Shown: positions 2,296-60,611 of the stretch, piece after piece
Position numbering within the stretch: the stretch's first letter is position 1
How the letters are laid out: each line of letters opens with the position of its first letter
Notes under the pieces: model-generated
Databases searched by the model: none
Told to the model about the DNA's origin: nothing
Seen by the model: the letters and a program-made list of their open reading frames with translations, nothing else
Assembly: GCA_023150835.1 (NCBI GenBank)
Contig: JAKLKB010000024.1
Location: 1-64,000, forward strand
Direction: 5' to 3'
DNA from: Myxococcota bacterium
GTDB lineage: Bacteria > Myxococcota_C > UBA6777
Length of the DNA stretch: 64,000 nucleotides
Program-made: the position numbers and the translations under genes

Positions 2296-4992
2296 ATGGA
2301 GCGATGTGTGAGAAACAGAGAAGACATCGTAGTGGTTGGGATGGGCGTTTTTTGCGCGATCGGATCGGATGTATCGGCGTTTTGGTCCTCTTTGGTGGCG
2401 GGGCGAGACGGGATGCGCGAAGTGGCGTCGCTTGAGCCTGCTTTTTCTGCGCGGATCGCGGGCTTGATCCACGAAGAAGAACGTGCGCGTGTGATCGCCT
2501 CGGTCGAAGGGGTTGATCCGTGTGTGTCGTTTGCTTTGCAGGCTGCGCGTGAGGCCAATGCGATGGCGGGAGAGAGCGGGTTTCGCGCATCGCGGGTGGG
2601 TTTGGTGTTTGGAACGAGCATGGGCAGCCATGAAACACGGATGCGCTACAACGATCTGCACGAAGCAAAGGCAGCACGGATGTTGGCGCATCACACGTTT
2701 GCTGCGGCGCAATTTGGCGTCGAGACAGCGCTTGTTGCGGATGCACTCGGCATCCAAGGCCCGCGCTTGACGATCAGCACAGCGTGTACTTCTTCGACCC
2801 AAGCCATCGGGCTTGCGCGTGAGTTTTTGCACGAAGACTTGGCGGATCGGGTCTTTGTGATCGGGTCCGATCCTTTTGCGATGGAAGTGTTCGCGGGATT
2901 TTATACCTTAGGCGTGATGAGTGCTTCGCCGTGTGCGCCTTTTGGAGAGCCTGTGGGGATGAATGTCGGAGAAGGCGCAGGGGCTTTGGTGTTGGAGCGC
3001 CAGACGGATGCTGTGCGGCGTGGGGCAACGCTTTACGCTGCGTTGCGTGGCTACGGGATGTCTGTCGATGCCTTCCATCCAACCACGCCCGAACCCGCAG
3101 GAAAAGGTGTCGCGCAGTCGATCCGTGAGGCGCTTTGTGATGCCTCACTGGAGCCACAAGATATCGGCTACTATAACGCTCACGGGACGGGGACCGCGAG
3201 CAACGACGCTGCCGAATGGAAAGCCATCCAACAAGTCTTTGCAGAACGCGCTGCGATGTTGCCGATCAGCTCGACCAAAAGCTACCTCGGACACGCCCAA
3301 GGAGCCGCTGGAATCCTCGAAGCCATCGCAACGATCATGGCCTTGCGCGAACAAGTCTGCTTGCCTACGCTGCATCTTCACACCAAACGCCGACAAGCGC
3401 CCGATGATCCGATCGCTTCGGAGGTTCCGCGCCCTTGCTCGTACAACGCCGCGATCAGCCACAACTCGGCCTTTGGCGGCCTCAACGCAACGCTTGTGTT
3501 TTCGCACCCCACATCGCCCGACTTCGCTCTGGATGGGCGTGATGGGATGGACCACAAAGCCTCTACAGCGACCGTCGTTTCAGGACCGACGTTGTCTCTT
3601 GCTCGTTCGATCGCGAAGGATGCGCTCTCGATCTCGATCGCGGAGGATGCGCTCTCGGTGGTGTACGTCTTGGGGGTCGGATCGGTGACCGCGCATGGGA
3701 CGGGCGGGATCTTGGATGCGTTGCGCGAAGGCAAGCCGTTGAAGCGGTGGCCCGAAGAGACGCGCTGGTTGGCAAGCGAACACAAGCAAGCGGGCTTTGT
3801 CCCGAAGATCGAGACGGGTGGACTCTTGCGGCGCGGAGAGACACGTGGAATGGACGATATCTCTCGCTATTTGACGATGGCGAGTGCAGCAGCCCTTCAA
3901 GACGCAGGGATCGCCATACGTGGAGATCTGCGCGAGCGAACGGGCCTTTTTGCGGGAGTTTCGCGTATCCCTGCGGAAAGCTGCTGGCGATTTTTGCGGA
4001 TCGCACGAGAGCGCGGATGGCATCGTGCGCCTGCCCATGAGTTCGCACGCTTGGTTCTCAACGCACCTGCGGGGGCTTGTTCGTTGGCGCTGGCGTTGCG
4101 CGGTGCGGGGACGACCTTGGTCGGTGCGGGAAGTGGCCTGATGGCGGCGATCTACGGAGTTTGGTGGCTGCGATCGCGCCCCGATACAGAAGTGATGTTG
4201 GTCGCAGGATGCGATGAGTTGGGTGACGACGATCTGCGCGAACACGAGAACACCGAGACGGGGCCTTTTCTTTCCGAAGGAGCAGGTGTTGTGGTCTTGG
4301 CCAACGCGCAGATCTGCAAAAGAGAGGGCATCGTGCCTCAAATCGCCGTCCGTGCGGTCTCCGTGATCGGAACGCTCAAAAGTGCCGATGATGGGGCCAT
4401 TCGCGAGGCGCTTGGTTCTTGGATGCTGCGCGCAGGGCAGCCTGACGCGATCTTTTGGGCGGGTTCTTCGGATGCCAAAATCTCTCTGTTTCAAGAGATC
4501 ATGTCGCCGTTGTATGGCCCGCAGGTTGCGCGGATCCCTGTGTGGCAAACCCTTTCGGTGTTGGGATATGCGCGGGCTGCGTCGTCTTCGTGGGCTTTGG
4601 TCGGGGCTATCGAGAGTATGCGCCAAGCATACCCACAGACGACCAACACCACGCAAAACACGCTCGAAGCAAAGCCTCAGACGTCTGACGCCATGCAAAG
4701 CACGCCCGAAGCCAAGCCCCAGACGCCCGATGGCGACAAAAAAACACCCGACGCCACGATCACAGAAAAGAACAGGCCGAAAGAACATACCAACCAAGTT
4801 GCCCGAACCATCGGCCTTTTCAATGTATTATTGCCTTGGTGGGGTTGTGATGCGGAAGGAAAGCCGCCAAGATGCGTGTGGGTGATCACAGAAGATGCGT
4901 TGTGCGGCGTGGGCCTGTTGTCTTTGTTTCAATGCCCGCCTGCTCAAACGATCGATGCCGCAAATTTCTCATCTCGCGGCATCTTGCGATGA
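2296..4992 (+). CDS. Two-headed beta-ketoacyl synthase: active KS fused to a chain-length-factor-like KS
   Basis: Residues 1-430 form a complete ketosynthase that would condense malonyl-ACP with an acyl primer: nucleophile Cys164 in TACTSST, His296 in HGTGT and His333 in GHAQG. From about residue 455 (LGVGSVTAHG) a second ketosynthase fold follows, but its Cys is replaced by Ala611 (GAGSGLM), the HGTGT motif reads AGSSD, and the second His is Tyr (LGYARA). This is the pattern of KS-beta/chain-length factors of type II polyketide synthases, normally a separate protein. A Thr/Pro-rich repetitive linker (EAKPQT) and a short C-terminal segment end the 898-residue chain. The ATG at 2296 is preferred because the frame further upstream translates element B. 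It is the first gene of the fatty-acid/polyketide-like cluster. KS identity is certain; the product is unknown. Confidence 0.88.
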   Translation: MERCVRNREDIVVVGMGVFCAIGSDVSAFWSSLVAGRDGMREVASLEPAFSARIAGLIHEEERARVIASVEGVDPCVSFALQAAREANAMAGESGFRASRVGLVFGTSMGSHETRMRYNDLHEAKAARMLAHHTFAAAQFGVETALVADALGIQGPRLTISTACTSSTQAIGLAREFLHEDLADRVFVIGSDPFAMEVFAGFYTLGVMSASPCAPFGEPVGMNVGEGAGALVLERQTDAVRRGATLYAALRGYGMSVDAFHPTTPEPAGKGVAQSIREALCDASLEPQDIGYYNAHGTGTASNDAAEWKAIQQVFAERAAMLPISSTKSYLGHAQGAAGILEAIATIMALREQVCLPTLHLHTKRRQAPDDPIASEVPRPCSYNAAISHNSAFGGLNATLVFSHPTSPDFALDGRDGMDHKASTATVVSGPTLSLARSIAKDALSISIAEDALSVVYVLGVGSVTAHGTGGILDALREGKPLKRWPEETRWLASEHKQAGFVPKIETGGLLRRGETRGMDDISRYLTMASAAALQDAGIAIRGDLRERTGLFAGVSRIPAESCWRFLRIARERGWHRAPAHEFARLVLNAPAGACSLALALRGAGTTLVGAGSGLMAAIYGVWWLRSRPDTEVMLVAGCDELGDDDLREHENTETGPFLSEGAGVVVLANAQICKREGIVPQIAVRAVSVIGTLKSADDGAIREALGSWMLRAGQPDAIFWAGSSDAKISLFQEIMSPLYGPQVARIPVWQTLSVLGYARAASSSWALVGAIESMRQAYPQTTNTTQNTLEAKPQTSDAMQSTPEAKPQTPDGDKKTPDATITEKNRPKEHTNQVARTIGLFNVLLPWWGCDAEGKPPRCVWVITEDALCGVGLLSLFQCPPAQTIDAANFSSRGILR

Positions 4993-5025
4993 AAAAAGCT
5001 GGATACAGCCGTGAGGAGGGAAGTG

Positions 5026-5958
5026 ATGGAGCGTCGAGAATTTTTCGCCAAAGCAGGCGCGTTGATGATGACTTCGATGGTTGGGGCGTCGATGGATGGG
5101 TGTGTTCATCGCGGTGCAGGGGTGGGTGGGTTTGATGTACAAGGTTATCTGTCGCGATTGGACGCGGCGGATCAAAAGATGATGTCGTTGCCATCGGTGT
5201 TTCCGAAGGGTGAGAGCCACCAGAAACGCGATGCTTTTGTGCGGCAAGCCTTTTCATCGCTGTTGTTGGTGGGATCGTTGCACGATATCCCCGAAGCGGC
5301 ACGAAGCCATCCCGCGATCCAAGAGCGCCTGTTGCGTGCGGCTCCTGTGTTGGACAACAGCTTGTTCAAAGCGGCCACGTTGGTCGAGTCCATCCCCGCT
5401 GCTCAGCGCAAAGAGATCCAGCGCTTTTTGCAAAAAGAAGAACGCCAAGTCAAAGCGATGCGTTCGTTGATGCTGGATTATGGGGTGCAAGCGGGGGTTG
5501 CCAAGTCGCGGTTGATCCACGCGGATCGCTTGATGGATCATATCCAATGGCGGATGCAAAAGCAAAATCCGTCGCTGTTGTTGGACACGCACGTCGCCAA
5601 GGTCGATCGGGTGGCCGCTTCCTTGGGGATCTCGGTCGAACAACGCCGAACACAGGGGCAGTTGACTCTCGATCCGCTGAGTGCGTGCCGTGTCTCGTCG
5701 CTGCTTGATCCGTTGGCGCAAGAGCCTTCGCGGGAATCCTTGGAAAGAGACACGCCCCCTGTTCTGGAAGCCCCCAAAAAGAAGCGCGGAAATGTGGGGT
5801 TTATCTTGATGGGGATCGGCGGTGCGCTCACCGTTGGGGGAGTGGTCGCTTCGTTGGTCGGTGGAACCAACGGCATCATCTTTGGCGGAATCTTTGGTTG
5901 GACGCCCGGCTCGATCATGTTGTTGATCGGAATTCCCTTGGCGATTTTTGGGATTTAA
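5026..5958 (+). CDS. Membrane-anchored exported protein, function unknown
   Basis: 310 residues. The N-terminus MERREFFAKAGALMMTSMVG has a twin-Arg/FF pattern like a Tat signal and is followed by a Cys (MDGC) that could be a lipidation site, although the lipobox is imperfect. The middle is helical and charged. The last 50 residues are Gly-rich and hydrophobic (VGFILMGIGGALTVGGVV, then IMLLIGIPLAIFGI), most likely two membrane helices. A strong GAGGAGGG ribosome site precedes the ATG at 5026. It lies 33 bases after the ketosynthase gene on the same strand and probably belongs to the same operon, so it may anchor or export the cluster's product (inference). No family was recognised. Confidence 0.7.
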   Translation: MERREFFAKAGALMMTSMVGASMDGCVHRGAGVGGFDVQGYLSRLDAADQKMMSLPSVFPKGESHQKRDAFVRQAFSSLLLVGSLHDIPEAARSHPAIQERLLRAAPVLDNSLFKAATLVESIPAAQRKEIQRFLQKEERQVKAMRSLMLDYGVQAGVAKSRLIHADRLMDHIQWRMQKQNPSLLLDTHVAKVDRVAASLGISVEQRRTQGQLTLDPLSACRVSSLLDPLAQEPSRESLERDTPPVLEAPKKKRGNVGFILMGIGGALTVGGVVASLVGGTNGIIFGGIFGWTPGSIMLLIGIPLAIFGI

Positions 5959-5959
5959 G

Positions 5960-6095
5960 TCATGTTGTGGGGTTTCACCCCGCGCCCCACAAGGGACCGA
6001 TGGCCCCTTGACCCCGTATTGGCGAAGAGATCAGCGTTTTTCAGACAGACGACTCTGTTGCTTGAAACCTCGCGAACACGGCTTTTTTGGGAGCA
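5960..6095 (-). repeat. Interspersed element B, copy 2 (inverted)
   Basis: Starts immediately after the stop of the preceding gene: TGGGGTTTCACCCCGCGCCCCA, then CCCCTTGACCCCGTATTGGCG and CGCGAACACGG. It separates that gene from the acyl carrier protein gene. Confidence 0.75.
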
Positions 6096-6149
6096 TCTGT
6101 GTGGCTCAAGCCTATCAGAGAGAGGGTAGACAAACGGTGGAGTAACGGG

Positions 6150-6572
6150 ATGATCGGAAAGATGCGAGCGGTGGCTTTGGAAAGAGCAGCGGTGCTCGAA
6201 GAGTTGAAGGGCCTGTTGATCGACAATCTACATCTTTCACTACAGCCAGATGATATCGACCCTGACGCGGCGTTGTTTGGTTCGGGGCTGGGGTTGGATT
6301 CCGTCGATGCGGTGGAGTTGGTGGTTGCTGTCGAAGATCGTTTTGATCTGGATTTTTCGCGCCAGACAGCACCTTCGGAGCCTTCTTCGGCCAAAGCGAG
6401 CGATCAGGCCGAACGGACGGGGGCTTCCGCTGTGGGAGATGCTTTGAGTGGACGGCAGATCGAACAATCCATGCGGATCTTTATGCGAACGCTCAATGCT
6501 CTTGTCGACGTGATCTTGTGGGCACGCGCCCAAAGCCCGTTGGCGACGCCATCTGCGACTCGTTCTTTGTAG
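6150..6572 (+). CDS. Acyl carrier protein with a long C-terminal extension
   Basis: The first 75 residues match the acyl carrier protein fold. Ser51 in GLGLDSVDAVELV is the expected site for phosphopantetheine attachment, so the protein would carry the growing acyl chain of this cluster. At 140 residues it is much longer than the usual 80: after VEDRFDLDF comes a polar insert (PSEPSSAKASDQAERTG) and then a hydrophobic helix-like tail (MRIFMRTLNALVDVILWARA). The ATG at 6150 follows GGTGGAG; Met at 6162 is an alternative. The extension may replace helix 4 or give membrane or partner contact (inference). Confidence 0.85.
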   Translation: MIGKMRAVALERAAVLEELKGLLIDNLHLSLQPDDIDPDAALFGSGLGLDSVDAVELVVAVEDRFDLDFSRQTAPSEPSSAKASDQAERTGASAVGDALSGRQIEQSMRIFMRTLNALVDVILWARAQSPLATPSATRSL

Positions 6573-6617
6573 GCAAAAGAGACAGGCACAGAACAAAAAG
6601 ACGAAGGAGTGCTCGGG

Positions 6618-7781
6618 ATGGTATTGCGCGATCGGATGCAAGCAGATGTGGCGATCTGGCGAGAGGTCGATGGGGTCGAGGTTCCCGCACGCTACACGAC
6701 GTTAGAGCAAGAAGTCTCGGCTTTGCGGTTTGGTGTTGGATTGAGTGATCGCTCGTATGTTTGTGTTCTGCGTTTGCGGGGGGAGGATGCTTACGACCTG
6801 TTGGATCGGTGTTGTCCGTGCGCGATGTATCTCCGCGATGGAGAAGTCCGTCACACGGTGCTTTTGTCGGAACAAGGAACCCCGATCTTGGATCTTTATG
6901 TGGGCAACGACGATGAGTCTTTTTTTGTGTTCTCGGAGGGAAAACCCGCGCAAGAAGTGTTGGCGTATTGGCGCTCGATGATCCCCGAAGGAGCGGATAT
7001 CCAGATCGAGTCGTGGAATGAAACGCACGCATTGTTGGGACTCAATGGTCCCTTTGCTTGGGAGTTGCTGGCCGAGTTGGAAGGGCATCAAGTGATCGGG
7101 TTTCCATACGCGACCTTCTATCGATCTGAAGAAGAGAATCTGTTCTTTCGCCTCGGAAAGACGGGCGAGTATGGTTATGATATCTTGGTTCCGCGTGACA
7201 AGGTGGCGGCGTATTGGGCGCGTGTGTTCGAGGTTGGACGCTCTTTTGATATCTGCCCTGTCGGATTCGAGGCGTTGGAACACGCGGGGTTGGAAAACTT
7301 CTTTTTTTCGATCCGACGAGAAGGTGCGCTTGGCCTAACGCCTGTCGAGTTGCAGCTACAATGGCGTGTGTCTTACGAAAAAGACTTCTTGGGCCGTGCC
7401 GCTCTCGAAGCCGTCAAGACGAGCGATGCACGTCGCCGTGTGACGGGGATCCGCAGCGCGCATCCGTTGAGCGAGGGGGCAGCCTTGTACTGCGAAGGGG
7501 AGCGCGTTGGAGAAGTGGTGGTTGCGATGCGTTCGGTCACTTTGGGGGCGTGGATCGGCTTGGGGTTGTTGGCGTTGCCGTGGGCGCAAGCGGGTCTGGC
7601 GCTCTCGACCGAACGCGCTAAAAAGGCCGATATGTGGACTGTTTCGATGCCCTTTGTTCGCAACTTGAGTATGTTGATCAATCCGCAAAAGCACAGTTAT
7701 CGGGATGCTGCGTCTTTGGAAACGCTGCGCCGATCTTTAAGCCAACCTGATATGTGGGTGGAAACAGCGGATGGAGCGTGA
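6618..7781 (+). CDS. GcvT-fold (aminomethyltransferase-like) protein
   Basis: 387 residues with the layout of the folate-binding GcvT/YgfZ superfamily: RFGVGLSDRSYVCVLRLRGEDAYDLLDR at the N-terminus, GLNGPFAWELL in the middle, GEYGYDILVPRDKVAAYW, and CPVGFEALEHAGLENFFFSIRREG. An AAGGAG site lies 8 bases before the ATG at 6618. Classical members move one-carbon units to or from tetrahydrofolate. Its place between carrier protein and ketoreductase suggests a tailoring step such as methyl or formyl transfer, or a structural role. Substrate and activity cannot be read from the sequence. Its stop is two bases from the next start, so the two genes are probably co-translated. Confidence 0.8.
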   Translation: MVLRDRMQADVAIWREVDGVEVPARYTTLEQEVSALRFGVGLSDRSYVCVLRLRGEDAYDLLDRCCPCAMYLRDGEVRHTVLLSEQGTPILDLYVGNDDESFFVFSEGKPAQEVLAYWRSMIPEGADIQIESWNETHALLGLNGPFAWELLAELEGHQVIGFPYATFYRSEEENLFFRLGKTGEYGYDILVPRDKVAAYWARVFEVGRSFDICPVGFEALEHAGLENFFFSIRREGALGLTPVELQLQWRVSYEKDFLGRAALEAVKTSDARRRVTGIRSAHPLSEGAALYCEGERVGEVVVAMRSVTLGAWIGLGLLALPWAQAGLALSTERAKKADMWTVSMPFVRNLSMLINPQKHSYRDAASLETLRRSLSQPDMWVETADGA

Positions 7782-7783
7782 GG

Positions 7784-8530
7784 ATGGGGAAGTTTGACGG
7801 ACAAGTCGCCGTCGTGACGGGATCTTCACGGGGGATCGGTCGTGCGATCGCGATGGCGATGGCGGAAGAAGGGGCGTTTGTGTACGTGCATTATCAATCA
7901 CGCGAAGACAAAGCGCGTGAGACGTTGGCGATGATCGAAGAAGCAGGAGGGCAGGGGGCGATCTTTGGCGTAGATGTGCGCGATGCAAAGGCCGTCAACG
8001 CCGCCTTTACAGAGATATCGGCGCAGAAGGGGCCGATCGATATCTTGGTGAATAATGCGGGGATCTGTCGTGATCAGTTTTTTGCGATGATGGAAGAAGA
8101 AGATTGGCGCGACGTGTTGGAGGTGAATCTGGGCGGCGTCTACCATTGCAGCCGTGCGGTGGCGCGTTCGATGATGGCGCGTCGTCAAGGGGTGATCTTG
8201 CACGTCGCCTCGGTGGCGGGACTCCACGCAAGCTCGGGGCAGTCGAACTATGCTGCCTCGAAGGGTGCGATCTTGAGCTTGACGCGCACGATGGCTGCGG
8301 AACTCGCCCCCAAAGGTGTGCGTGTCAATGCCCTTGTTCCCGGTATGATCAACGCAGGCATGGCCGAGCGCATGGATCAGCGTATCGCACGACAAAAGCG
8401 CGAGATGATCCCTTTGCGGCGCTTTGGCGAAGCCCACGAAGTCGCCCGTGTCGCGGTGTTTTTGGCCTCGGAGGATGCCCGTTATATCGTCGGTCAGGCT
8501 TTGGTCGTGGATGGTGGCTTAACGCTGTAA
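7784..8530 (+). CDS. fabG: 3-oxoacyl-ACP reductase-like short-chain dehydrogenase
   Basis: A 248-residue classical short-chain dehydrogenase. NAD(P) motif TGSSRGIG at 12-19, NNAG at 90-93, catalytic Ser143, Tyr156 and Lys160 (SNYAASK), and the FabG-type C-terminus ARYIVGQALVVDGGLTL. It would reduce the 3-keto group made by the ketosynthase. The ATG at 7784 lies two bases after the preceding stop, with GGAG as ribosome site; the longer in-frame extension lies inside the previous gene. It is probably the dedicated ketoreductase of the cluster rather than the general fatty-acid enzyme, as no housekeeping fab genes are adjacent. Confidence 0.9.
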   Translation: MGKFDGQVAVVTGSSRGIGRAIAMAMAEEGAFVYVHYQSREDKARETLAMIEEAGGQGAIFGVDVRDAKAVNAAFTEISAQKGPIDILVNNAGICRDQFFAMMEEEDWRDVLEVNLGGVYHCSRAVARSMMARRQGVILHVASVAGLHASSGQSNYAASKGAILSLTRTMAAELAPKGVRVNALVPGMINAGMAERMDQRIARQKREMIPLRRFGEAHEVARVAVFLASEDARYIVGQALVVDGGLTL

Positions 8531-8546
8531 CCGAAGTCCTCCTCGG

Positions 8547-8660
8547 ATACGAGATCCGCCTGTTGCGTTATCGTAAAGAGGTCGGGACAGACACAGGGGT
8601 CTGCCTAATCATAGGGCGTCTATGTACTTTGCTACGATCACACATCATTCGGATATCGTC
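8547..8660 (+). repeat. MITE-like element A, copy 1
   Basis: Begins ATACGAGATCC and ends GGATATCGTC, an imperfect terminal inverted repeat. The core (ACAGACACAGGGGTCTGCC) is a diverged version of the GGGGCAGCC/GGCTGCCC hairpin seen in other copies. It lies 16 bases behind the reductase stop and fills the gap to the next gene. Confidence 0.7.
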
Positions 8661-8688
8661 TAAGCCGTTGTTTTGAGAGGTATGGGTG

Positions 8689-9702
8689 ATGGAACGTCGC
8701 ATCTTGTGGGCTTTTCCCGGGCAAGGAACGGAAGAAGCGGGAATGGGGGTTGCGTTGGCATCGGAGTATCCGCTTGTTCGGGCGTGTTTGGAGCGGGCGT
8801 CGGATTGTTTGGGGATGGATGTGCATCGGATGTTGTTGCGGGGGAATCGGAGGATTGGAGAGACGCAGATCTTGCAGCCAGCGATCACAGCGGTGAGTGT
8901 AGGGATTGGGCGGATCTTGGAGGCGCACGGGGTGGGGCGTGGGTGGACGATCGGACATTCTCTTGGGGAGATGGGAGCGGTGTGGGCGGCGGGTGGATGG
9001 GGCTGGTCTGAAGCGATCCATCTGTCGGCGGTGCGGGGGAGTTGGATGGCGGAGGCGGCTCGACAAGTGGAAGGCGGGATGCTTGCGCTTACGGATACTT
9101 CCGAAGAAGTCTGTCAAGAAGCCATCGCGTGGGGGCGGCAGTTTGGGGCGTTTGGTTTGGCGGCACAAAATGGGCCGAGGCTGTGGACATTGACGGGGGA
9201 TATCGAAGCGGTCGAAGCTGTCTTGAAGCGTTATCCGTCTCGTCGGCTGGTGGCTTCGGGAGCTTGGCATAGTCCTCGGATGGCGGAGGCGGTGGAGCCT
9301 TTTCGTGCGGTGATGGAGGAGGCTGTGTGTAAGCTCTTGGAACGAGGTGTGCGTGACGAGGCGGCAGAGCCTTTTCGTGCGACGGTGGCGCAGGTTCCAA
9401 AAGGGCATTGGAAAGCGCATTGGATCGCGAATGCGACGGGCGATATCTGCTCTGATATCGCAGAAGTCCCGAAGCTGTTGAGTATGCAGCTAACCCAGCC
9501 GATCCTGTGGATGCTGTCGATGCAGCATTTGGAAAAAGAAGAGCTCACCGATATCGTGATCTGCGGCCCACATCGGGTCTTACAGGGGTTGTTGCGCCGT
9601 CATCTTCCGCGTGCGCGTGTCCATGCAACCGAGCATCCGCGCTTGTTGCGTGAAACGCTCGATGCTTTGGGTGATCTGCGTTCGAGAGAGGCTGTTCGAT
9701 GA
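8689..9702 (+). CDS. fabD: Malonyl-CoA:ACP transacylase
   Basis: Loads malonate from CoA onto the carrier protein. The 337-residue protein starts with the FPGQGTE motif, has the nucleophile Ser91 in GHSLGE, the carboxylate-binding Arg116 (AVRGSWM) and the catalytic His194 in GAWHSPRM. GAGAGG lies 8 bases before the ATG; a GTG three bases earlier is an alternative. About 30 residues after His194 (RGVRDEAAEPFRA) look like an insertion repeating the preceding AVEPFRA segment. Its end overlaps the next start by four bases (ATGA), showing translational coupling with the dehydratase. Confidence 0.92.
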   Translation: MERRILWAFPGQGTEEAGMGVALASEYPLVRACLERASDCLGMDVHRMLLRGNRRIGETQILQPAITAVSVGIGRILEAHGVGRGWTIGHSLGEMGAVWAAGGWGWSEAIHLSAVRGSWMAEAARQVEGGMLALTDTSEEVCQEAIAWGRQFGAFGLAAQNGPRLWTLTGDIEAVEAVLKRYPSRRLVASGAWHSPRMAEAVEPFRAVMEEAVCKLLERGVRDEAAEPFRATVAQVPKGHWKAHWIANATGDICSDIAEVPKLLSMQLTQPILWMLSMQHLEKEELTDIVICGPHRVLQGLLRRHLPRARVHATEHPRLLRETLDALGDLRSREAVR

Positions 9703-10331
9703 AGCGAAAAAAAGATGTGTTGTCGTTGGGATCAGAAGTTGTGCAGTTGTTGGTGCCGCAAAGACGGCCTTTTTTGATGGTGGATCGCGTCGAAGCCTAC
9801 CAACGTGAGCCTCAAGGGTATGCGATCTGTAGTCGTTGTTTGTCGATCAACGACCCTTTTTTTGCGGGACACTTTCCTCAAATGGCCGTCTTCCCGGGCG
9901 CATTGATGTTGGAGGGGATGTGCCAAACCTCGCAGATCTTGTGTACGTTAACGATCTATCAGCGCTTCATGGAGGAACAAGGCGACGAGCCCGCGTCTCT
10001 GCTCGAAGCCTTGCGCAATCTCGAACGCGGCTTTCGCCTTGAACCCGGATACCAAGAAGAACAAGCCCGACTGTATCTTGAGCGAACACAGCAGGCCCGA
10101 CGCAACAACATCGGCATGACCGCAAGCACGCAAATGAAGTTCCTACATCCCGTCTTTGCGGGTGAACAGGTGTTTTACACTTCGCGTTTGCAGCGGCAGA
10201 TGGACGAGATGTGGCGCTTTGAGGTCGAGGCCGAAGTCAACGAGAAGATCGTCGCCAAAGGCGTGGTCACGTCGATGGTTGTCCAACATCCTGCGGTCTC
10301 TTCTCTGTTGGCTGCGGTGCTTCACGGGTGA
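9699..10331 (+). CDS. FabZ/FabA-like 3-hydroxyacyl-ACP dehydratase
   Basis: Hotdog-fold dehydratase that would remove water from the 3-hydroxyacyl chain. It begins with the FabZ-like segment LLVPQRRPFLMVDRV, then GHFPQMAVFPGALMLEGMCQ with catalytic His58 and Glu72. At 210 residues it is about 60 longer than FabZ. The extra part is a charged segment (about 90-140: EEQGDEPASLLEALRNLERG and beyond) before the second half of the fold (KFLHPVFAGEQVFYTSRL). Four-base overlap with fabD. FabZ-like without isomerase is the simplest reading, but a FabA-like double-bond isomerase cannot be excluded. Confidence 0.87.
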   Translation: MKRKKDVLSLGSEVVQLLVPQRRPFLMVDRVEAYQREPQGYAICSRCLSINDPFFAGHFPQMAVFPGALMLEGMCQTSQILCTLTIYQRFMEEQGDEPASLLEALRNLERGFRLEPGYQEEQARLYLERTQQARRNNIGMTASTQMKFLHPVFAGEQVFYTSRLQRQMDEMWRFEVEAEVNEKIVAKGVVTSMVVQHPAVSSLLAAVLHG

Positions 10332-10347
10332 GGGTGTTTTGAGTGCG

Positions 10348-12021
10348 ATGGCGATATCGATCCGAGAGATGGCTCGGAAGGACGGGAGGTTTCGAGTGAA
10401 AGAAGAGCGGGAGCGAAGTTATTGGGGATGGGGCTACGCAGATCAAGTGTTGCCTGAAAAGCTGTTGGCGCGGTTTCAAGGGACGTTGCAGATGGCGTTG
10501 GGGTTGGAGGCGTTGCGGCATCGCCAACCGTTGGGGCTTTCGGCGCTGCGGCTTCGTGTACCGCGCTTTGCATTACCCGCATCGTTGCGGGATATCTGCA
10601 CGCAGGAAACGCCCGAGCGTGCAAGACACAGCTACGGAAAAGCGTTTCGCGATGTGGTGCGCGGGCTGTACGGGCAATTCGACAACCCGCCCGATTATGT
10701 GGCCTATCCGCGAAGTGAGGCCGATATCGAGCGTTTGTTTGCGTTTTGTGGTGCATCCAACGTGGCGCTGATCCCGTTTGGTGGGGGAAGCAGCGTGGTG
10801 GGCGGTGTCGAACCTCCCCGAACAGCGGGGTATGCGGGGGCGATATCGTGTGATATGCGCTTTTTTGATCGGGTGATACGGGTGGATCGCGAAAGTCGAA
10901 CCGCAACCATCCAAGCGGGGATCTACGGCCCTGCCTTGGAGGCGGCCTTGAAGCCGCATGGCTTGACGTTGCGCCATTTTCCCCAAAGCTTCGAGTTTTC
11001 CACTTTGGGCGGGTGGATCGCAACCCGCTCTGGCGGCCATTATGCGACGGTTCAAACCCACATCGACGAATTTGTGCAGTCTGTACGGATGGTGACGCCC
11101 AAAGGTGTGTTGGAAACCCGCCCTTTACCCGGATCGGGGGCCGGCCCAGAGCCTTCGCGTTGGGTGATCGGCTCCGAAGGGATCTTTGGCATCCTTACCG
11201 AAGCCACCATGCGCTTGCAAGATATCCCGCAGTATCGGTCCAAAGCGACGGTGTCGTTTGCGTCTGAACCTGCGGGGTTTGCGGCGGTTCGCCAGATCAG
11301 CCAATCCGGACTCTCTCCCGCCAACTGTCGGCTGATCTCTTCGATGGAAGCTTTTAGCATGGGAGCGGGCGATGGTCGCGAGACGATCTTGTTGTTGGGG
11401 TTCGAGTCTCACGATCATCCGCAACAGCAGCGATTGGAGCGGGCCTTGGCGATCTGCGCACAGCACGACGGCTCGCCCAAAGTCTTGCAAGGTCGGGCCT
11501 TGGACGACGAAGAGGGCGATGCTTCGGAGCGTTGGAAACAGAGCTTTTTGTTGGCTCCGTACCTGCGCGATGCGATGCTTTGTTGTGGGATCTTGCTTGA
11601 AACCTTTGAAACCGCCGTCACATGGGATCGTTTTGCTGCGTTCCATCAAGCCGTGATCGCGGCTGCGACGGATGCTTTGCAAGCACACTGCGGCGGAGGG
11701 TTGATCACATGGCGTTTTACGCATGTCTATCCTGACGGGCCTGCGCCTTATTACTCGGTGGTGGCTCCTGCCCGAGAAGGCCAAGAAGTCGAACAATGGG
11801 ACGCCATCAAATCCGCTGTCTCTGACGCGATCCTCGCCTGTGGTGGCACGATTACACACCACCACGCCGTCGGCAAAGATCATCGACCTTGGTATACGCA
11901 ACAGATATCCCCTCTCTTCGGCGAGATCCTCCACCAAGCCAAACGCACCCTCGATCCCGCGTGGATACTCAACCCCGAAGTCCTCCTCCCTCCCGACCCT
12001 CCTCACTCACAACGCTCTTGA
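10348..12021 (+). CDS. FAD-linked oxidase, alkyl-DHAP-synthase-like
   Basis: 557 residues. The N-terminus RSYWGWGYADQ, the FAD-binding PCMH domain (PFGGGSSVVGGVEPP, then FSTLGGWIATRSGGHYATVQTHIDEFV) and the C-terminal motif THHHAVGKDHRPWY match alkyldihydroxyacetonephosphate synthases, which exchange the acyl group of acyl-DHAP for a fatty alcohol to form an ether bond. The histidine run is the family's active-site signature. Two starts are possible: ATG at 10348, 16 bases after the dehydratase stop, or GTG at 10396 with a good GGGAGG site. Being the last enzyme of the cluster, it suggests an ether-linked lipid product, though related FAD oxidases use other substrates. Confidence 0.8.
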   Translation: MAISIREMARKDGRFRVKEERERSYWGWGYADQVLPEKLLARFQGTLQMALGLEALRHRQPLGLSALRLRVPRFALPASLRDICTQETPERARHSYGKAFRDVVRGLYGQFDNPPDYVAYPRSEADIERLFAFCGASNVALIPFGGGSSVVGGVEPPRTAGYAGAISCDMRFFDRVIRVDRESRTATIQAGIYGPALEAALKPHGLTLRHFPQSFEFSTLGGWIATRSGGHYATVQTHIDEFVQSVRMVTPKGVLETRPLPGSGAGPEPSRWVIGSEGIFGILTEATMRLQDIPQYRSKATVSFASEPAGFAAVRQISQSGLSPANCRLISSMEAFSMGAGDGRETILLLGFESHDHPQQQRLERALAICAQHDGSPKVLQGRALDDEEGDASERWKQSFLLAPYLRDAMLCCGILLETFETAVTWDRFAAFHQAVIAAATDALQAHCGGGLITWRFTHVYPDGPAPYYSVVAPAREGQEVEQWDAIKSAVSDAILACGGTITHHHAVGKDHRPWYTQQISPLFGEILHQAKRTLDPAWILNPEVLLPPDPPHSQRS

Positions 12022-13929: not shown

Positions 13930-14112
13930 CTACTGATCCGCCCGTTGTGTGCGACCTATGTAGGGGCAGCCCCCTGTGGCTGCCCAATAAAAGGGCGTCT
14001 GCGTAAAGATGTAGGGGCAGCCCTCTGTGGCTGCCCAATAAAAGGGCGTCTGTGTAAAGATGTAGGGGCAGCCCCCTGTGGCTGCCCAATAAAAGGGCGT
14101 CTACAGCAGATC
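13930..14112 (+). repeat. MITE-like element A core, three tandem copies
   Basis: GATCCGCCCGTTGTGTGCG is followed by three copies of a unit of about 55 bp: GTAGGGGCAGCC(C/T)CCTGTGGCTGCCC and AATAAAAGGGCGTCTGTGTAAAGAT. Each copy can fold into a GGGGCAGCC/GGCTGCCC hairpin. It lies between the methyltransferase and msrA genes. Confidence 0.8.
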
Positions 14113-20589: not shown

Positions 20590-21060
20590 GCCAACCGTTG
20601 ATAAGGCGCGTATGGGGGCCTGCCCCTACGAAACACCGTGTGATTTCCAATACGTAGGGGCAACCATGTGTGGTTGCCCTGTTGCTGGGGTTCGTTCAAA
20701 ACGTGTGATTCCCAACACGTAGGGGCAACCCCCTGTGGTTGCCCTGTTGTTGGGGTTCGTTCAAAACAGACGGCGATGAAGAGGTCACCGACGCAACAGA
20801 TCGAGGGCAGGCACACCTGTCTGCCCCTACGAAGCACCGTGCGATTTCCAATACGTAGGGGCAACCATGTGTGGCTGCCCTGTTGTTGGGGTTCGTTCAA
20901 AACAGACGGCGATGAAGAGGTCACCGACGCAACAGATCGAGGGCAGGCACACCTGTCTGCCCCTACGAAACACCGTGCGATTTCCAACACGTAGGGGCAA
21001 CCAGGTGTGGCTGCCCTGTTGTTGGGGTTCGTTCAAAACAGATTCCTCGACCCTCCGGTG
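20590..21060. repeat. Block of element A variants (GTAGGGGCAACC / GGTTGCCC type)
   Basis: Four copies of the hairpin core GTAGGGGCAACC...GTGTGGTTGCCC are joined by TGTTG(T/C)TGGGGTTCGTTCAAAAC. Two of them are part of a longer repeat of about 135 bp (containing AGACGGCGATGAAGAGGTCA and CAACAGATCGAGGGCAGGCA) present twice in tandem. It lies upstream of pyk and may carry its promoter. Confidence 0.8.
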
Positions 21061-24150: not shown

Positions 24151-24322
24151 CCATAGGTAATAGGGCAGCCACAGGGGGCTGCCCCTACATCTTTACGCAG
24201 ACGCCCTGTAATAGGGCAGCCACAGGGGGCTGCCCCTACATCTTTACGCAGACGCCCTGTAATAGGGCAGCCACAGGGGGCTGCCCCTACATCTTTACGC
24301 AGACAACGGGCGGATCTCGTAT
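24151..24322 (-). repeat. MITE-like element A, inverted, with triple core
   Basis: Three copies of a unit of about 50 bp (GGGCAGCCACAGGGGGCTGCCCCTAC and ATCTTTACGCAGACGCCCTGTAAT). The right edge GGGCGGATCTCGTAT (ending 24322) is the standard left end of element A in reverse. Confidence 0.82.
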
Positions 24323-30066: not shown

Positions 30067-31089
30067 TTAGCGGGGAGTGAAGCGAGGTTGGCCGTAGAAA
30101 GGGAAGTAGACGTTGTAAGTAATGTATCCATCGGGCTTGGGGGTGGGTAAGGCCCCGAGTCCGACTTTGAGGAGAGAGTCGGGTTTGAGGGAGTTGATGA
30201 AGTCTTTTTCGATCTTGAAGCGGATATCGCCGCGAAAGATGCTGTAGCGGAAGTTGGGGTTGAGTTGGATCTTGCCTGTCACTTGGAGGTCGATATCGCC
30301 GCCAAATGCGCGAACATTGGAGAGATCGGCGATAGCTTTTTCCATTTTGATCTCGATATTGAGGGTGCCGAGGTTGAGGCGTGGGACGGGGAGTTCACCC
30401 ATCTGGCCGGCGGGGAAGTAGCCCGGGCCGATCGAGAAGTTGCGGATCGTGAGTTTGATCTTGCCGGTGCTACGGTTGAGATCGATGGCGTTGGGAGGTG
30501 GGCGAAAGGTGGGGCGTTTGTTTTTGCCTTGTGGAGCGGGGGCGTTGGTGGGAGGGAGTAGATCGAGGTTGATATCGCCGCGAACGGCACCGAATACAGG
30601 GGCAAAAAGGATCTCAAGCAGCGGCTTGGCGTCGGGGTTTTTGAGCATCTTTCCGCTGGTGGGGCCGAGAAGGGCGAGTTGTAAGCCGTCGAGGTTGGCT
30701 TGGACGGAGATCTCGTTTTTTCGGGAGCGAGAGAACGAGCCGTTGAGTTCGCCGCTGGCGATCTCGGCAAAGAAGGAAGCCGAGAGACTGCCCCAGAGTA
30801 AGGGGAAGATGGAGAGTCGAGCGCGGACTTGCGGGATCTGAACTTCGGCGATGCCCTTGGGGACGAGACGTTGGAGGTTGAGGTCTTGGATGTGTACGCC
30901 CGTGAGGTAATAGGGGCGAAGGTCGTTCATTTGGATGCGGGTTTGGGTGGCGCGTTGGACGGGAACGGAAAAAGCGTCAAAAAGCCGTCTGTAGGGGAAA
31001 GTTTGGTAGAGGAAGAACAGAAAGGAAAAGAAAGCGAGGGCAGCATAAGCTGTCCAACGGAGGAGCTTTTGGAGACGTTCTCTTTGCAT
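30067..31089 (-). CDS. gspN: Type II secretion protein GspN
   Basis: 340 residues. An N-terminal membrane helix (WTAYAALAFFSFLFFLYQTF) is followed by a long periplasmic beta-rich domain (VQIPQVRARLSIFPLLWGSLSASFFAEIASGELNGSF) like GspN and AsmA-type proteins. It is the last gene of the gsp operon, 7 bases after gspM. GspN is an accessory, non-universal component of the inner-membrane platform. The final segment DGYITYNVYFPFYGQPRFTPR is polar. Confidence 0.82.
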   Translation of the reverse strand: MQRERLQKLLRWTAYAALAFFSFLFFLYQTFPYRRLFDAFSVPVQRATQTRIQMNDLRPYYLTGVHIQDLNLQRLVPKGIAEVQIPQVRARLSIFPLLWGSLSASFFAEIASGELNGSFSRSRKNEISVQANLDGLQLALLGPTSGKMLKNPDAKPLLEILFAPVFGAVRGDINLDLLPPTNAPAPQGKNKRPTFRPPPNAIDLNRSTGKIKLTIRNFSIGPGYFPAGQMGELPVPRLNLGTLNIEIKMEKAIADLSNVRAFGGDIDLQVTGKIQLNPNFRYSIFRGDIRFKIEKDFINSLKPDSLLKVGLGALPTPKPDGYITYNVYFPFYGQPRFTPR

Positions 31090-31096
31090 GACGGCC

Positions 31097-31672
31097 TCAG
31101 TTTTGGGCGAGATCGTAAGTGGAGACAGTGGCGTTAAAGTCGGGCTTTGCGGGTTCAGAGAAGTTGGGACTCATGCGAAGCTCGCGGACTTTGACGATCT
31201 GGCCGGAGTTTTCGATGCCATCGAGAAAGCGAGCCAGAGCGCCCAGATCGGCAGCGGTGATACTGATACGGACGGAGCGTTCGCGTAGGCGAGAGGCGTT
31301 GGGGGCGGCGGAAGGTGCATCGGAGACGGGATTCATGGAGGAGATATTGATGCTGTGTTTTTGGCTGAGTTGATCGAGAAAGGTGATGAGGTTGAGGCGT
31401 CCGGCTTGTTTGATGCGCTGTTCGAGGCGTTCGACTTTGCGTTTGGCGACTTCAAAGCGGCTTTGGAGTTGGGCGATCTGAGCCAGTTGTTTGACGAGTT
31501 CTTGGTTGCTGCTTTCGCGGCTTTTGAAGCTACCGCCGATCACAAGGTCGCCGATGTAAAGGAGCAAGAGCAGGCCGACGACACCGATGATCAGGGCCAA
31601 GACACGATCACGCGGAGATTGTTGTTCGAGATAAGCGGTGACTTGATCAACCTTTTCTTCAAAGAAAGCCAT
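31097..31672 (-). CDS. gspM: Type II secretion protein GspM
   Basis: 191 residues: short cytosolic N-terminus, one membrane helix (VLALIIGVVGLLLLLYIGDLVI), a coiled coil (SNQELVKQLAQIAQLQSRFEVAKRK...), then a ferredoxin-like periplasmic domain. GspM is part of the inner-membrane assembly platform with GspL, C and F. It normally follows gspL closely; here 221 bases containing element B intervene, which may uncouple or weaken its expression. Confidence 0.85.
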   Translation of the reverse strand: MAFFEEKVDQVTAYLEQQSPRDRVLALIIGVVGLLLLLYIGDLVIGGSFKSRESSNQELVKQLAQIAQLQSRFEVAKRKVERLEQRIKQAGRLNLITFLDQLSQKHSINISSMNPVSDAPSAAPNASRLRERSVRISITAADLGALARFLDGIENSGQIVKVRELRMSPNFSEPAKPDFNATVSTYDLAQN

Positions 31673-31714
31673 AATGCTTGCATTCCTTGTGGTATAGGGC
31701 AGTTTGCAGGTGTC

Positions 31715-31913
31715 TCAGCAGTCAAGGGGGCTGCATTGTTCGGTCGAGGTTGTGGGGCTTTGCCCAACGCCCCGCGCCCTTAGCGCGGCTGCCTTGACCC
31801 CGTATTGGCGCGGTGTTCCTTGGTTTTTCAATCGAACAGCCTTGCCGCTTGAAGTGGCGCGAACACGGGGGGTTTTGTCCACAGCCCATTGTTTCAGCAG
31901 TCAAGGGGGCTGC
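31715..31913 (-). repeat. Element B (copy 6) flanked by a 20-bp direct repeat at the gspL 3' end
   Basis: The sequence TCAGCAGTCAAGGGGGCTGC occurs at 31715-31734 and again, perfectly, at 31894-31913. The second copy contains the gspL stop codon and its last five codons. Between them lies an inverted element B (CCTTGACCCCGTATTGGCG, GCCGCTTGAAGTGGCGCGAACACGGGG). The arrangement resembles an insertion with duplication of the gspL end. Confidence 0.75.
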
Positions 31914-33522
31914 GCAGGCGGAATTCGTATTTGTTTTGTTTGCCAGCGGCGCGTTGGACGACACCTTCGGGCATCTTGGCGAAACATTTGTATTCTTTGA
32001 GATTTTGTTGGATCTGTGAAGCCGCAGCATACGAATCGGTTTCGCCTTCAAGCTCGAAGTTTCGGGCGTTGATGTTGAGGCGTGTGATCTCGATCTTGAG
32101 CTTTTTGTCTTTGGCGAGGCGAGAGACGCGGTCGTAGATCTCGAGGAACATATCATAAGCGCTAATGGTAGGGATGACGGCTTGTTCGCCGGTGCCTTTG
32201 GCTTTTTGGATCTCTTCGAGCATGATGTTGATGCAGCGGGTGGGATCGGAGATGGGCTGTCCAAGGATCTGCTGACAGCGGCGTTCGACTTCACGTTGGA
32301 GTTGTGTGTTTTCTTTGGAGAGTGCGTAAAAGCCGGTAAAGACGGAGGTCATCAGCAAGACCAACAAGATGGCGGAGCCGATCACAAGGCTAGGGATGCG
32401 ATCTTTGAGGAATTGGAGATCGCCTTTGTAGGCGAATTCACGTGTGCGGAAGTTGATCTGGGCAAATCGAGAGCGAGAAAGGCCGCGAAGGGCGAGAGCA
32501 AGGGCTTTATGGAGTGGGGCGTCTTGTTGGGGCCAAGCCAAGCCTTCGGCGGTGGGGATGTGTTTGGGTTGGAGCGGTAAGACGCGGAGATTGAGGCGCT
32601 GGGCGAGAAATGTAGCGATGCCTCGGAGCATGGCTCCGCCGCCTGTGATGTAGAGGGTTTGGAGTTGCTGGCTTGCGCGGCGTTGGAGGGCCGCAAAGGA
32701 GCGGCGAAGTTCGGTGAGGATGGGAGTAAAAGCGCGTTGGACGGATTGGGTTTCGGGGGAGTCGATAGCGCCGGGTGGAGCGGCGAGATCGATCTGATTC
32801 CATAGCGTCTCGTGGGCTTGGTGTGGATGGATCTGGTGGGTGGTGATGAGGGCTTGGCGAAGTTGGCGGGTGCCGCGTTGGATCGAGCGGACAAGCTCGG
32901 CGCGAACGGGTTCTTTGGGATCTTGGGGGTAGCGGCGGAACAGGGTGAGTGTGGTGTGTCGGAAACCAAGGTCGAGGACACCCCATGTTTCTTCGTCAGG
33001 TCCGGGTTCACAATCGGGAAAGAGATGGGTGTAAGGCAGTCCGTCAAGCATCAAGACGCGGGGATCGACAGCGGCTTCTTGGAGGCTGCGGAGGTAGGAG
33101 CCGACTTCTTCGATGGGGGCGTTGCCGACGAGTACACGGGAGCCTTCTTTGGTGGATTCGATGAATTGGTAGTCATAGATCAGGTCTTCGATCTCGAAGG
33201 GCGACATCTCATCGAGTTGGAAGCTGAGGACTTGCTCGATCTTTGCGGTGTCAGAAAAGGGCAGATCGATCACGGCGCTTGCGCCGATGGATCCCGGGAG
33301 AGAGGTGATGATCTGTTCGACAGGTCCGATGGTTTGGAGCGTTTGTGCGATCGCTTGTTTGCGAGCGTTTTGGATGGATTCGGCCTCGGTTTCGGGGCCG
33401 TCGTCGAGGGGTATCGCTTCGAGGTGGTAGGCTTCGACGTTGTATTGACGGCCCGTCTGTTGAAGAACCACAGCTTTGATGGAAGCCTTACCGATATCGA
33501 GTCCGAGGATGCGTTGGGCCAT
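31894..33522 (-). CDS. gspL: Type II secretion protein GspL
   Basis: 542 residues. An actin-like cytosolic domain (ILGLDIGKASIKAVVLQQ; WGVLDLGFRHTTLTLF; LYITGGGAML) as in GspL/PilM binds the ATPase GspE. One membrane helix lies near 380-405 (IPSLVIGSAILLVLLMTSVF), followed by a periplasmic domain that pairs with GspM. It transmits the motor's action to the pseudopilus. The C-terminus (RLRSPLDC) is encoded by the 20-bp repeat described at 31715-31913 and may not be ancestral. Confidence 0.9.
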   Translation of the reverse strand: MAQRILGLDIGKASIKAVVLQQTGRQYNVEAYHLEAIPLDDGPETEAESIQNARKQAIAQTLQTIGPVEQIITSLPGSIGASAVIDLPFSDTAKIEQVLSFQLDEMSPFEIEDLIYDYQFIESTKEGSRVLVGNAPIEEVGSYLRSLQEAAVDPRVLMLDGLPYTHLFPDCEPGPDEETWGVLDLGFRHTTLTLFRRYPQDPKEPVRAELVRSIQRGTRQLRQALITTHQIHPHQAHETLWNQIDLAAPPGAIDSPETQSVQRAFTPILTELRRSFAALQRRASQQLQTLYITGGGAMLRGIATFLAQRLNLRVLPLQPKHIPTAEGLAWPQQDAPLHKALALALRGLSRSRFAQINFRTREFAYKGDLQFLKDRIPSLVIGSAILLVLLMTSVFTGFYALSKENTQLQREVERRCQQILGQPISDPTRCINIMLEEIQKAKGTGEQAVIPTISAYDMFLEIYDRVSRLAKDKKLKIEITRLNINARNFELEGETDSYAAASQIQQNLKEYKCFAKMPEGVVQRAAGKQNKYEFRLRSPLDC

Positions 33523-33552
33523 AGGAGATTCCTTACAAGCGAGAGCATGGGG

Positions 33553-35331
33553 CTATTGGAGTTGCCAGAAGTAGACTTTGCGAGCGCCGCGAGGCTCCAT
33601 AAAGATCACGGCTTGGATGCGGCGTTGGACACGACCGACTTGTCCGACGGCTTCGACGCGAAAGAGGTCGGTGTCGGTGGTGAGGGTGATACCTGTATTG
33701 CGGTTCATTGTAAAGCGCGGAAGCTGTTGAGGGTTGATCTGCTGCTGCATGTTGGTGGCCCCGAGTCCTTGGGTGAGGTTGGAGGGGAGGACGTTGGGAT
33801 TTTCGCACCAGTTGAAGAAAGCGTTGTCGTCCTCGAAGCCGAGGTAGTTTCGCCATGTCTCCATTGCTTGGACGAATTGGAGGAAGGCAGGTTGTAGAAA
33901 GATGCTTCGATCGAAGGGGGGTTTGGGGACACCGTGAGCCATGACAAGACCGCGCAGGATGTTGATGTCGGCTTGTTGGATGTTGATCCGCAAGGGGCCG
34001 TAAACGGTGAAGAGATGGCCGAAGGTTTGGAAGAAGATATCGTCCACGCCGTAGATCAAGCGAAGCTCTTTGACCGAGTCGAGATAAGAGTTTTTGGTGT
34101 AATAGCCTTTTTCATCGTAGCGGTATTTGGAGTCTTCGGTGTTGCTGTCTTCGCCAGCGACGCGGTTGTCTGGGTCGATCCAGTCTTGTATGGCGGAGAT
34201 CTGTTCTTGTCGTGTGATGCGAGTGCCGTCGGCGCGAGGGTTTTCAAACAGGGGATTGTAGCGTGGTGGGGCAAAGATGGCTTCTAATTGTTTGCGCAAG
34301 ACCAAGGCTTCACGGGCGCTGTAGAAGTGGTTGAGATTGAGTTTGGCGCTTTCATCGGTGAGCGTTGCGGAAAAGCGGCCACTAAAATCTCCGAAGGGAT
34401 AGAGTTGGCCTTGGTCGGTGGTACGGCCTTTGTCTTTGTCTTCGTCTTTGTTGCGTTTGGCTCGACCAAAAGCACCGCCCGCGATGGACTTGATTAGGTC
34501 GGAGTTGACGGGGACGATGCTCCAAAGCTGAAAGCGATTGAGCAACATGGCGAGTTCGGGGCGTCCACCAAGCATCTGTTTGATGCCTGCTTTGAAGGTG
34601 GACTTGATCTTGCGGAACTTGTGTTCAAAGGACAGCAAGAGGTGGGTGAATTCGAGGGAGGATCGGGCGAGGTATTCGGCACGCAAGGCATCACGGGAGT
34701 TTGCGGCCATTTGAAGTTGGACACGCGCATCGAATTGGAGTTCGAGCGTCAGGGAGGTGGCGAGCATCAACAAGCTGAGAACAAGCAAAAGAGCGAGGCC
34801 TCGGCTGCGCTTGGCTTGCAAGCCGATCGGCGCGGAGGGGATCGTGGTTGGGGTGGTGTTGTCGTCATAGGCGGAGGGATGGGGTGTGGAAAGACGGGGG
34901 AGAGTGGTTGAAGTGGCCGAAGTGGCGGAGGGATGAGTGAGCGTGGTCGAAGTGGCCGAAGTGGCGGAGGGATGAGTGAGCGTGGTCGAAGTGGCGGAGT
35001 GATGGGGCGTTGTCGCACGAGCGATGTTGCGAAGGCGAGGCGAAGGAGCGATGGGGATGCCCCAGAGATGGGTGCGGCGGCGTGGTGGGCGCGTTGTGGA
35101 GGCGGAAGCTGTAGGGAGAACGGTGTTTGTTGTGGAGGCGGAAGCTGTAGGGAGAAAGGCGGTTGTTGTGGAGGCGGAAGCTGTAGGGAGAACGGTGTTT
35201 GTTATCGAGGCGGAAGCTGTAGGGAGAACGGTGTTTGTTATCGAGGCGGAAGCTGTAGGGAGAACGGTGTTTGTTGTGGAGGCGGATATCGTGGGTGGGT
35301 GGGTGGGGGAGGTGTATTTGTTTTGGGGCAT
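33553..35331 (-). CDS. gspK: Minor pseudopilin GspK with a 178-residue N-terminal extension
   Basis: From residue 172 onward (KRSRG then LALLLVLSLLMLATSLTLE) this is GspK, the large tip pseudopilin. It has the prepilin-peptidase cleavage site after Gly178, no Glu at mature position 5 (normal for GspK), and the conserved LNLNHFYSAREAL and ISAIQDWIDPDN segments. Normal leaders are 6-25 residues. Here the leader is 178 residues of Ser/Thr/Ala-rich repeats (LPTASASTTNTV about six times; THPSATSATSTTL twice). The ATG at 35331, with GAGG 9 bases upstream and 15 bases after the gspJ stop, looks genuine; no closer start codon with a ribosome site was found. Confidence 0.85.
   Translation of the reverse strand: MPQNKYTSPTHPPTISASTTNTVLPTASASITNTVLPTASASITNTVLPTASASTTTAFLPTASASTTNTVLPTASASTTRPPRRRTHLWGIPIAPSPRLRNIARATTPHHSATSTTLTHPSATSATSTTLTHPSATSATSTTLPRLSTPHPSAYDDNTTPTTIPSAPIGLQAKRSRGLALLLVLSLLMLATSLTLELQFDARVQLQMAANSRDALRAEYLARSSLEFTHLLLSFEHKFRKIKSTFKAGIKQMLGGRPELAMLLNRFQLWSIVPVNSDLIKSIAGGAFGRAKRNKDEDKDKGRTTDQGQLYPFGDFSGRFSATLTDESAKLNLNHFYSAREALVLRKQLEAIFAPPRYNPLFENPRADGTRITRQEQISAIQDWIDPDNRVAGEDSNTEDSKYRYDEKGYYTKNSYLDSVKELRLIYGVDDIFFQTFGHLFTVYGPLRINIQQADINILRGLVMAHGVPKPPFDRSIFLQPAFLQFVQAMETWRNYLGFEDDNAFFNWCENPNVLPSNLTQGLGATNMQQQINPQQLPRFTMNRNTGITLTTDTDLFRVEAVGQVGRVQRRIQAVIFMEPRGARKVYFWQLQ
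34895..35290 (-). repeat. In-frame minisatellites in the gspK leader
   Basis: 35094-35290 holds about six 36-bp units (GGCGGAAGCTGTAGGGAGAA with CGGTGTTTGTT, plus-strand reading). 34900-35000 holds two to three 39-bp units (GTGAGCGTGGTCGAAGTGGC). Unit sequences are nearly identical, pointing to recent expansion. Confidence 0.85.
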
Positions 35332-35346
35332 GGTGTGGGCCTCGTT

Positions 35347-37494: not shown

Positions 37495-37537
37495 GGGGCG
37501 TCCTTGGGTGCGGAGGTTTGGAGTGAAGGGAGGCGGA

Positions 37538-37984
37538 TCACTCTTTTTCGCAGCGGATATCTTTGGTGTTGTACTCGGTGCCACCTTCTTTTCCATCGGA
37601 GCCGAGGGAAAGCACGTCGGGGGAGTTGGGGTTGGTGAGGCTCGGGTTGCGGTAGAAGTAGTCGAAGTTCCAAGGATCTTTGGGGATCTTGCGACCAGCC
37701 CACGTTCCCGAAGTGACGAGGGCGTTGAGTCCTTCGCTGTTGGAGGGGTACGATCCTTTTTTCAAACGGTAGAGTTGAAGGGCTTTTTCGATGTTGCAGA
37801 CTTGGGAGCGTGCGATCTCGATCTTGCTTTCTTCAAAGTAGCGGATCAAGCGGACACCTGCGAGGGTTCCGATCAATCCGATGATCACAACAACAACCAT
37901 GATCTCGATCAAGGTCATCCCGCGCTGTGTGCGGCGTTTTTGGAGGTTTTGGGGTTGGGGCTTTGGCATGGGCATCGGTTTCAT
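37538..37984 (-). CDS. gspG: Major pseudopilin GspG
   Basis: 148 residues from the ATG at 37984 with AAAGGAG 10 bases upstream. Prepilin site KRRTQRG followed by MTLIEIMVVVVIIGLIGTLAGV. The mature part has the GspG signature LYRLKKGSYPSNSEGLNALV, KDPWNFDYFYRNP and VLSLGSDGKEGG. It polymerises into the pseudopilus that pushes substrates through the secretin. Maturation needs a prepilin peptidase, whose gene is not in this window. Confidence 0.95.
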   Translation of the reverse strand: MKPMPMPKPQPQNLQKRRTQRGMTLIEIMVVVVIIGLIGTLAGVRLIRYFEESKIEIARSQVCNIEKALQLYRLKKGSYPSNSEGLNALVTSGTWAGRKIPKDPWNFDYFYRNPSLTNPNSPDVLSLGSDGKEGGTEYNTKDIRCEKE

Positions 37985-38188: not shown

Positions 38189-38189
38189 A

Positions 38190-60608: not shown

Positions 60609-60611
60609 AGA

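Follow-up and report, generated by a model that had tools for sequence, protein, structure and literature searches.

A conserved ketosynthase-fusion cassette, a candidate polyene type II polyketide synthase, and its alkyl-DHAP-synthase-like neighbour in an uncultured bacterial lineage

The aryl polyene (APE) type II polyketide synthase (PKS) of Escherichia coli CFT073 comprises a ketosynthase (KS) with a chain-length factor (CLF) partner, a ketoreductase (KR), a FabZ-like dehydratase (DH) and an acyl carrier protein (ACP), with no enoyl reductase (ER), and is accompanied by a second KS and by thioesterase, glycosyltransferase, methyltransferase, acyltransferase, LolA and MMPL genes. Streptomyces plasmid type II PKS loci (L102 and L103) encode KS/CLF-like fusions of 789 and 788 aa together with FabD and ACP, with KR and DH in L102, and carry three KS genes, KSIII, an aldo/keto reductase and an ester cyclase. 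Cispentacin and coronafacic acid synthesis leads to cyclic or short products by way of a KS with a non-catalytic partner, an ACP and a decarboxylating hot-dog enzyme. Part of the CLF secondary structure is missing from the cispentacin protein AmcG (PMC10698177). In the M. xanthus ether-lipid loci (MXAN_1676-1674 and the elb operons), the neighbours of AGPS are a FAR/GNPAT-like protein and an epimerase rather than a PKS (PMC9131029).

The locus described here shares the KS with CLF partner, KR, FabZ-like DH, ACP and absence of an ER with the CFT073 system, but has KS and CLF fused, its own malonyl transferase (MAT), a GcvT paralogue and a Tat lipoprotein-like gene, and lacks the accompanying genes named above. 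It lies in a window of 64,000 nucleotides (the whole stretch of DNA analysed) at the start of contig C160 of the source genome (G000), a 7.56-Mb draft in 239 contigs. Comparison genomes were same-family relatives, which with G000 make up a family set of five (G001 of the same genus, G003 of another genus, and G002 and G004), followed directly by genomes at the level of the same domain, and the wider sample consisted of 386 diverse genomes. Eight genes follow one another at the locus:

2296..4992, + strand: KS/CLF fusion (Pfam PF00109/PF02801; FabF-type models matched in NCBIfam at scores well short of the FabF cut-off; KS tree; orthologue alignment, n=2)
5011..5958, + strand: probable Tat-exported lipoprotein of a family without a name (no Pfam/NCBIfam match; positional orthologues in both G001 and G003)
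6087..6572, + strand: acyl carrier protein with DSV motif and extended C-terminus (PF00550; closest in NCBIfam, though below cut-off, is PRK09184 phosphopantetheine-binding protein)
6609..7781, + strand: GcvT-like paralogue with altered folate-site residues (PF01571/PF08669)
7784..8530, + strand: FabG-type ketoreductase with YAASK motif (TIGR01830, 276 bits; 70 % identity to the G003 copy)
8686..9702, + strand: malonyl-CoA:ACP transacylase with GHSLG motif (PF00698, TIGR00128)
9699..10331, + strand: FabZ-type hot-dog dehydratase that carries an insertion and retains the His of GHFP and the Glu of LEGMCQ (PF07977, FabZ families)
10348..12021, + strand: alkyl-DHAP-synthase-like flavoprotein, outside the conserved cassette (2uuu, E 2.6e-70; 4bby, E 2.2e-56; structure matches)

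The intergenic gaps along the eight genes are, 5' to 3', 18, 128, 36, 2, 155, -4 and 16 bases. The initial annotation had named seven of these genes, and all seven were recovered on the + strand with strong Pfam/NCBIfam matches; its description of several as overlapping or within 20 bases agrees with the gaps of 18, 2, -4 and 16 among the seven junctions, while its total of seven has to be raised to eight with the missed gene at 5011-5958 (315 aa). As it had also stated, neither an ER nor a thioesterase gene was found in 2296-12021. The active-site motifs of KS, ACP, KR, MAT and DH are all intact, and the genes are real and, judged by sequence, catalytically intact.

The chain-making set is a conserved unit of a small group of uncultured bacteria, and the ether-lipid enzyme is an optional neighbour. 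The conserved block consists, in order, of KS/CLF, lipoprotein, ACP, GcvT paralogue, KR, MAT and DH. All seven genes recur in G003 with their order unchanged and approximately 35-70 % protein identity, and such synteny in a second genus rules out chance; the next gene in G003 is SelO, not the flavoprotein. The unit of G001 is divided between two contigs, the first of which carries it up to the DH, and the second of which starts inside the DH and runs into the flavoprotein gene with a short spacing similar to that in G000. The cassette is absent from two of the five family genomes (G002 and G004), and no further copy of the GcvT-like and lipoprotein-like genes was found among the 386 diverse genomes, where one weak partial lipoprotein match was obtained. 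A scan of 84,980 species gave matches in two family members only, recorded as 'Myxococcota bacterium' KLAP109 and 'Deltaproteobacteria bacterium' NP119, and absence elsewhere is not strict since the scan relied on two short motifs as query. Literature searches on KS/CLF together with aminomethyltransferase or GcvT yielded nothing, and a search on 9S5H gave nothing useful.

The block at 2296-10331 is probably a divergent, lineage-specific highly-reducing (polyene) type II PKS. The features sought for a polyene PKS were a catalytic KS with a non-catalytic CLF partner, KR and DH without an ER, and a KS placed inside the polyene KS clade rather than with FabF. The N-terminal KS half of the fusion has an intact Cys-His-His triad (TACTSS, HGTGT, GHAQGAA), and the C-terminal CLF-like half, which gives a weak FabF match, has lost the active-site Cys position in an alignment with two orthologues. 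In a tree of 24 sequences with a weak deep backbone (61/48), the cassette KS falls inside the polyene clade, where it joins the KS that elongates the APE chain and the fused KS from Streptomyces (95/88; 94/91 with the APE group), as sister of the APE KS group, and E. coli FabF is placed apart from it. KR and DH are present, and beyond the absence of an ER gene from the locus, neither G000 nor G003 gave a FabI homologue at E<=1e-15; G001 gave only an SDR match at 27 % identity, and both G002 and G004, which are without the cassette, have clear FabI. The search covered FabI, and FabK, FabL, FabV or the ER domain of a type I fatty acid synthase (FAS) may be partners of the system. The earlier proposal, that a KS/CLF system lacking an ER assembles an acyl chain and leaves it unsaturated, finds support in the protein families, the FabI search and the KS tree, and a polyene is the product that we somewhat favour. 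MAT would load malonate onto the ACP, KS/CLF would extend the chain, KR and DH would convert each beta-keto group to a double bond and, with no ER acting, the acyl chain that builds up on the ACP would be a conjugated polyene or unsaturated in some other way. It counts against the polyene reading that the conserved block has no starter-loading, release or transfer enzyme, and the reading leaves the GcvT paralogue without explanation.

Membership of the APE clusters was rejected, since second KS, thioesterase, acyl-CoA ligase, glycosyltransferase, LolA and MMPL genes are all absent from the cassette and from its G003 copy. The Streptomyces plasmid fusions are 32 % identical to the cassette fusion over approximately 600 residues, and FabD and ACP are shared by both loci with the cassette, as are the KR and DH of L102; the multiple KS genes, KSIII, aldo/keto reductase and ester cyclase are unlike the cassette, and no GcvT-like match was found in the L102 and L103 loci. 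Similarity of KS, ACP and DH to the cispentacin AmcB/E/F/G set (PMC10698177) is below threshold: the NCBIfam models of AmcF (231 bits), AmcB and AmcE, and weakly that of AmcG, were matched without reaching the cut-off, and these matches would suit a cyclic or short product like those of the cispentacin and coronafacic acid routes. We regard such a product as very unlikely, because the cassette has a ketoreductase and no AmcH-like ligase in the block, its partner half is of full CLF length, unlike AmcG (PMC10698177), and its DH retains the FabZ His and Glu.

Bulk fatty acids appear to be made by a type I FAS in this lineage. A 3409-aa type I FAS of the fungal/actinobacterial type is encoded on contig C139 of G000 (L116:1126-11352), neither FabF nor FabH passed the NCBIfam thresholds in the family, and together these observations imply that the cassette is not a housekeeping type II FAS, which was rejected on the same grounds. 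A role in lipid A supply was likewise rejected because none of the five family genomes has LpxC. The presence of the type I FAS without canonical FabF/FabH, and a GcvT paralogue reminiscent of lipoate/glycine cleavage, would also be compatible with a dedicated type II FAS that supplies acyl-ACP beside the type I enzyme, for lipid A 3-hydroxyacyl or lipoate octanoyl chains; against the missing LpxC, a block without ER in genomes (G000 and G003) without FabI, the two family genomes that do without the cassette, and the fusion of KS and CLF, which is a polyketide feature, this explanation has only a slim chance. A 4'-phosphopantetheinyl transferase gene adjoins the type I FAS gene. Elsewhere in G000, a 2592-aa protein with KS, AT and FabA-like domains resembles a PUFA synthase, and on contig C99 (L078) malonyl transferase, KS, KR, HMG-CoA-synthase-like and enoyl-CoA-hydratase-like genes lie beside an AONS-like gene and look like a beta-branching PKS-type set.

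The lipoprotein-like protein and the GcvT paralogue are among the features that set the conserved block apart from the APE system. The protein encoded at 5011-5958 shows an RR motif and a lipobox-like Cys near its N-terminus, the latter clearest in the G003 member of the family (SQLAAC), and a hydrophobic pair at its C-terminus; its structure model is all-helical and of low confidence (pLDDT 47). It is probably a Tat-exported lipoprotein, and its gene suggests an envelope destination. The GcvT-like protein scores 98 bits, against a gcvT family cut-off of 235.85, and the true GcvT of the source genome is encoded on contig C109 (393 bits), and on these grounds a glycine-cleavage T-protein was rejected. 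At the positions of the Thermotoga folate-site residues Y83, D96, Y188 and R227 the cassette copy reads H, D, K and L, with E in place of D in G003; the folate site as a whole is not retained. The substrate of the paralogue is probably not glycine but the chain or the ACP, which it would bind or modify.

The flavoprotein at the downstream end is a convincing alkyl-DHAP-synthase (ADPS) homologue by both sequence and structure model. Its best PDB sequence matches are the Dictyostelium (2uuu) and guinea-pig (4bby) enzymes, and a HMMER alignment shows that H300, T309, S367, R419, R515, Y578 and HHH615-617 (guinea-pig numbering), presumably the catalytic residues, are all conserved. Its AlphaFold model (pLDDT 71) has a PCMH-type FAD fold closest to ADPS, the first 37 Foldseek rows are all ADPS (E 1e-34, with the next fold following at 6e-22), a further structural comparison gave Z 31 against 24, and the solved ADPS structures precede every other flavoprotein. 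The ADPS-type features previously ascribed to the protein thus hold both in its residues and in structural comparison with known ADPS, and a D-lactate/glycolate dehydrogenase was rejected as ADPS matches far better at both levels. The protein shares the ADPS (AGPS) fold and catalytic residues, and is approximately 27 % identical to mammalian AGPS in a structural alignment, against approximately 42 % reported for MXAN_1676 and human AGPS (PMC9131029).

The flavoprotein had also been read as the end of the pathway, and this is not supported, as the G003 cassette is without it (no homologue in G003 at E<=1e-30) and its relatives elsewhere are not beside PKS genes. Matches at E<=1e-80 occur in 30 of 386 genomes; the surroundings were read for the relatives in eight genomes, G004 and G024 among them, and all lie away from PKS genes, one of them adjoining a gene with sequence resemblance to glycerol-3-phosphate dehydrogenase. 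In the genus to which the window belongs, an ADPS homologue appears to have been added at the operon's end. It would exchange the acyl group of acyl-DHAP for a fatty alcohol and, whatever the source of that alcohol, would work with an ElbD-like protein encoded elsewhere. Such FAR-ACS-ACP-acyltransferase proteins, whose domain order resembles that of the ether-lipid enzyme of M. xanthus (PMC9131029), are encoded at L114:8225-13012 (G000 contig C29) and L115:4779-9509 (G003), each with an adjoining epimerase gene, and FAR-domain matches of ElbD-like size were found in G000, G001 and G003, all of which have the cassette, and in neither G002 nor G004. A second ADPS homologue of G000 (L024:8969-10681), with HQH replacing HHH, lies beside a GlpD-like gene. 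Ether lipids are plausible in this organism, because its genome encodes ADPS homologues and an ElbD-like protein.

The suggested link between the cassette and ether lipids comes from adjacency in one genus. In a single integrated pathway, the ElbD-like FAR would turn the unsaturated cassette chain into an alcohol by reduction, and the adjacent ADPS would build this into a glycerol ether, giving polyene ether lipids. The 16-base spacing on the same strand in G000 and the similar spacing in G001, the full ADPS catalytic set of the flavoprotein, and the FAR-ACS-ACP-acyltransferase protein in G000 and G003 with the FAR-domain match in G001 speak for such a pathway. We nevertheless consider it unlikely, as G003 has the cassette and the ElbD-like protein but no flavoprotein, flavoprotein relatives in other genomes do not adjoin PKS genes, FAR and acyltransferase lie outside the operon, and the second ADPS homologue adjoins a GlpD-like gene. 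A polyene ether lipid as the cassette product is accordingly rated as rather improbable. Still broader, and quite improbable, would be a novel class of envelope lipids with polyene chains from the fused KS/CLF, processing by a GcvT-derived folate-fold protein in a non-glycine role, and ether linkage by the operon ADPS, in bacteria seemingly without lipid A and with a type I FAS.

The compact type II PKS architecture of KS/CLF fusion, GcvT paralogue and lipoprotein would be a new one, in an uncultured lineage that appears to use type I FAS for bulk fatty acids and is without LpxC. If the adjacent ADPS does use the cassette product, polyketide chains would be linked to ether lipids, for which we know of no described pathway.

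Other features of the window were noted beside the cassette. An AMP-binding ligase fragment on the minus strand (126-983), the frame of which ends near the contig edge, may be an assembly-edge artefact; this truncation, its divergence and its absence from the G003 locus are the reasons why it was left out of the cassette. Component genes of type II secretion (Gsp) were read by eye from the translations of the minus strand at 30070-44868. A dispersed, locally tandem repeat around TAGGGGCAGCCCCCTGTGGCTGCCC occurs on both strands with small variations (13958-14102, 24157-24304, 20637-21042 and 60242-60609).
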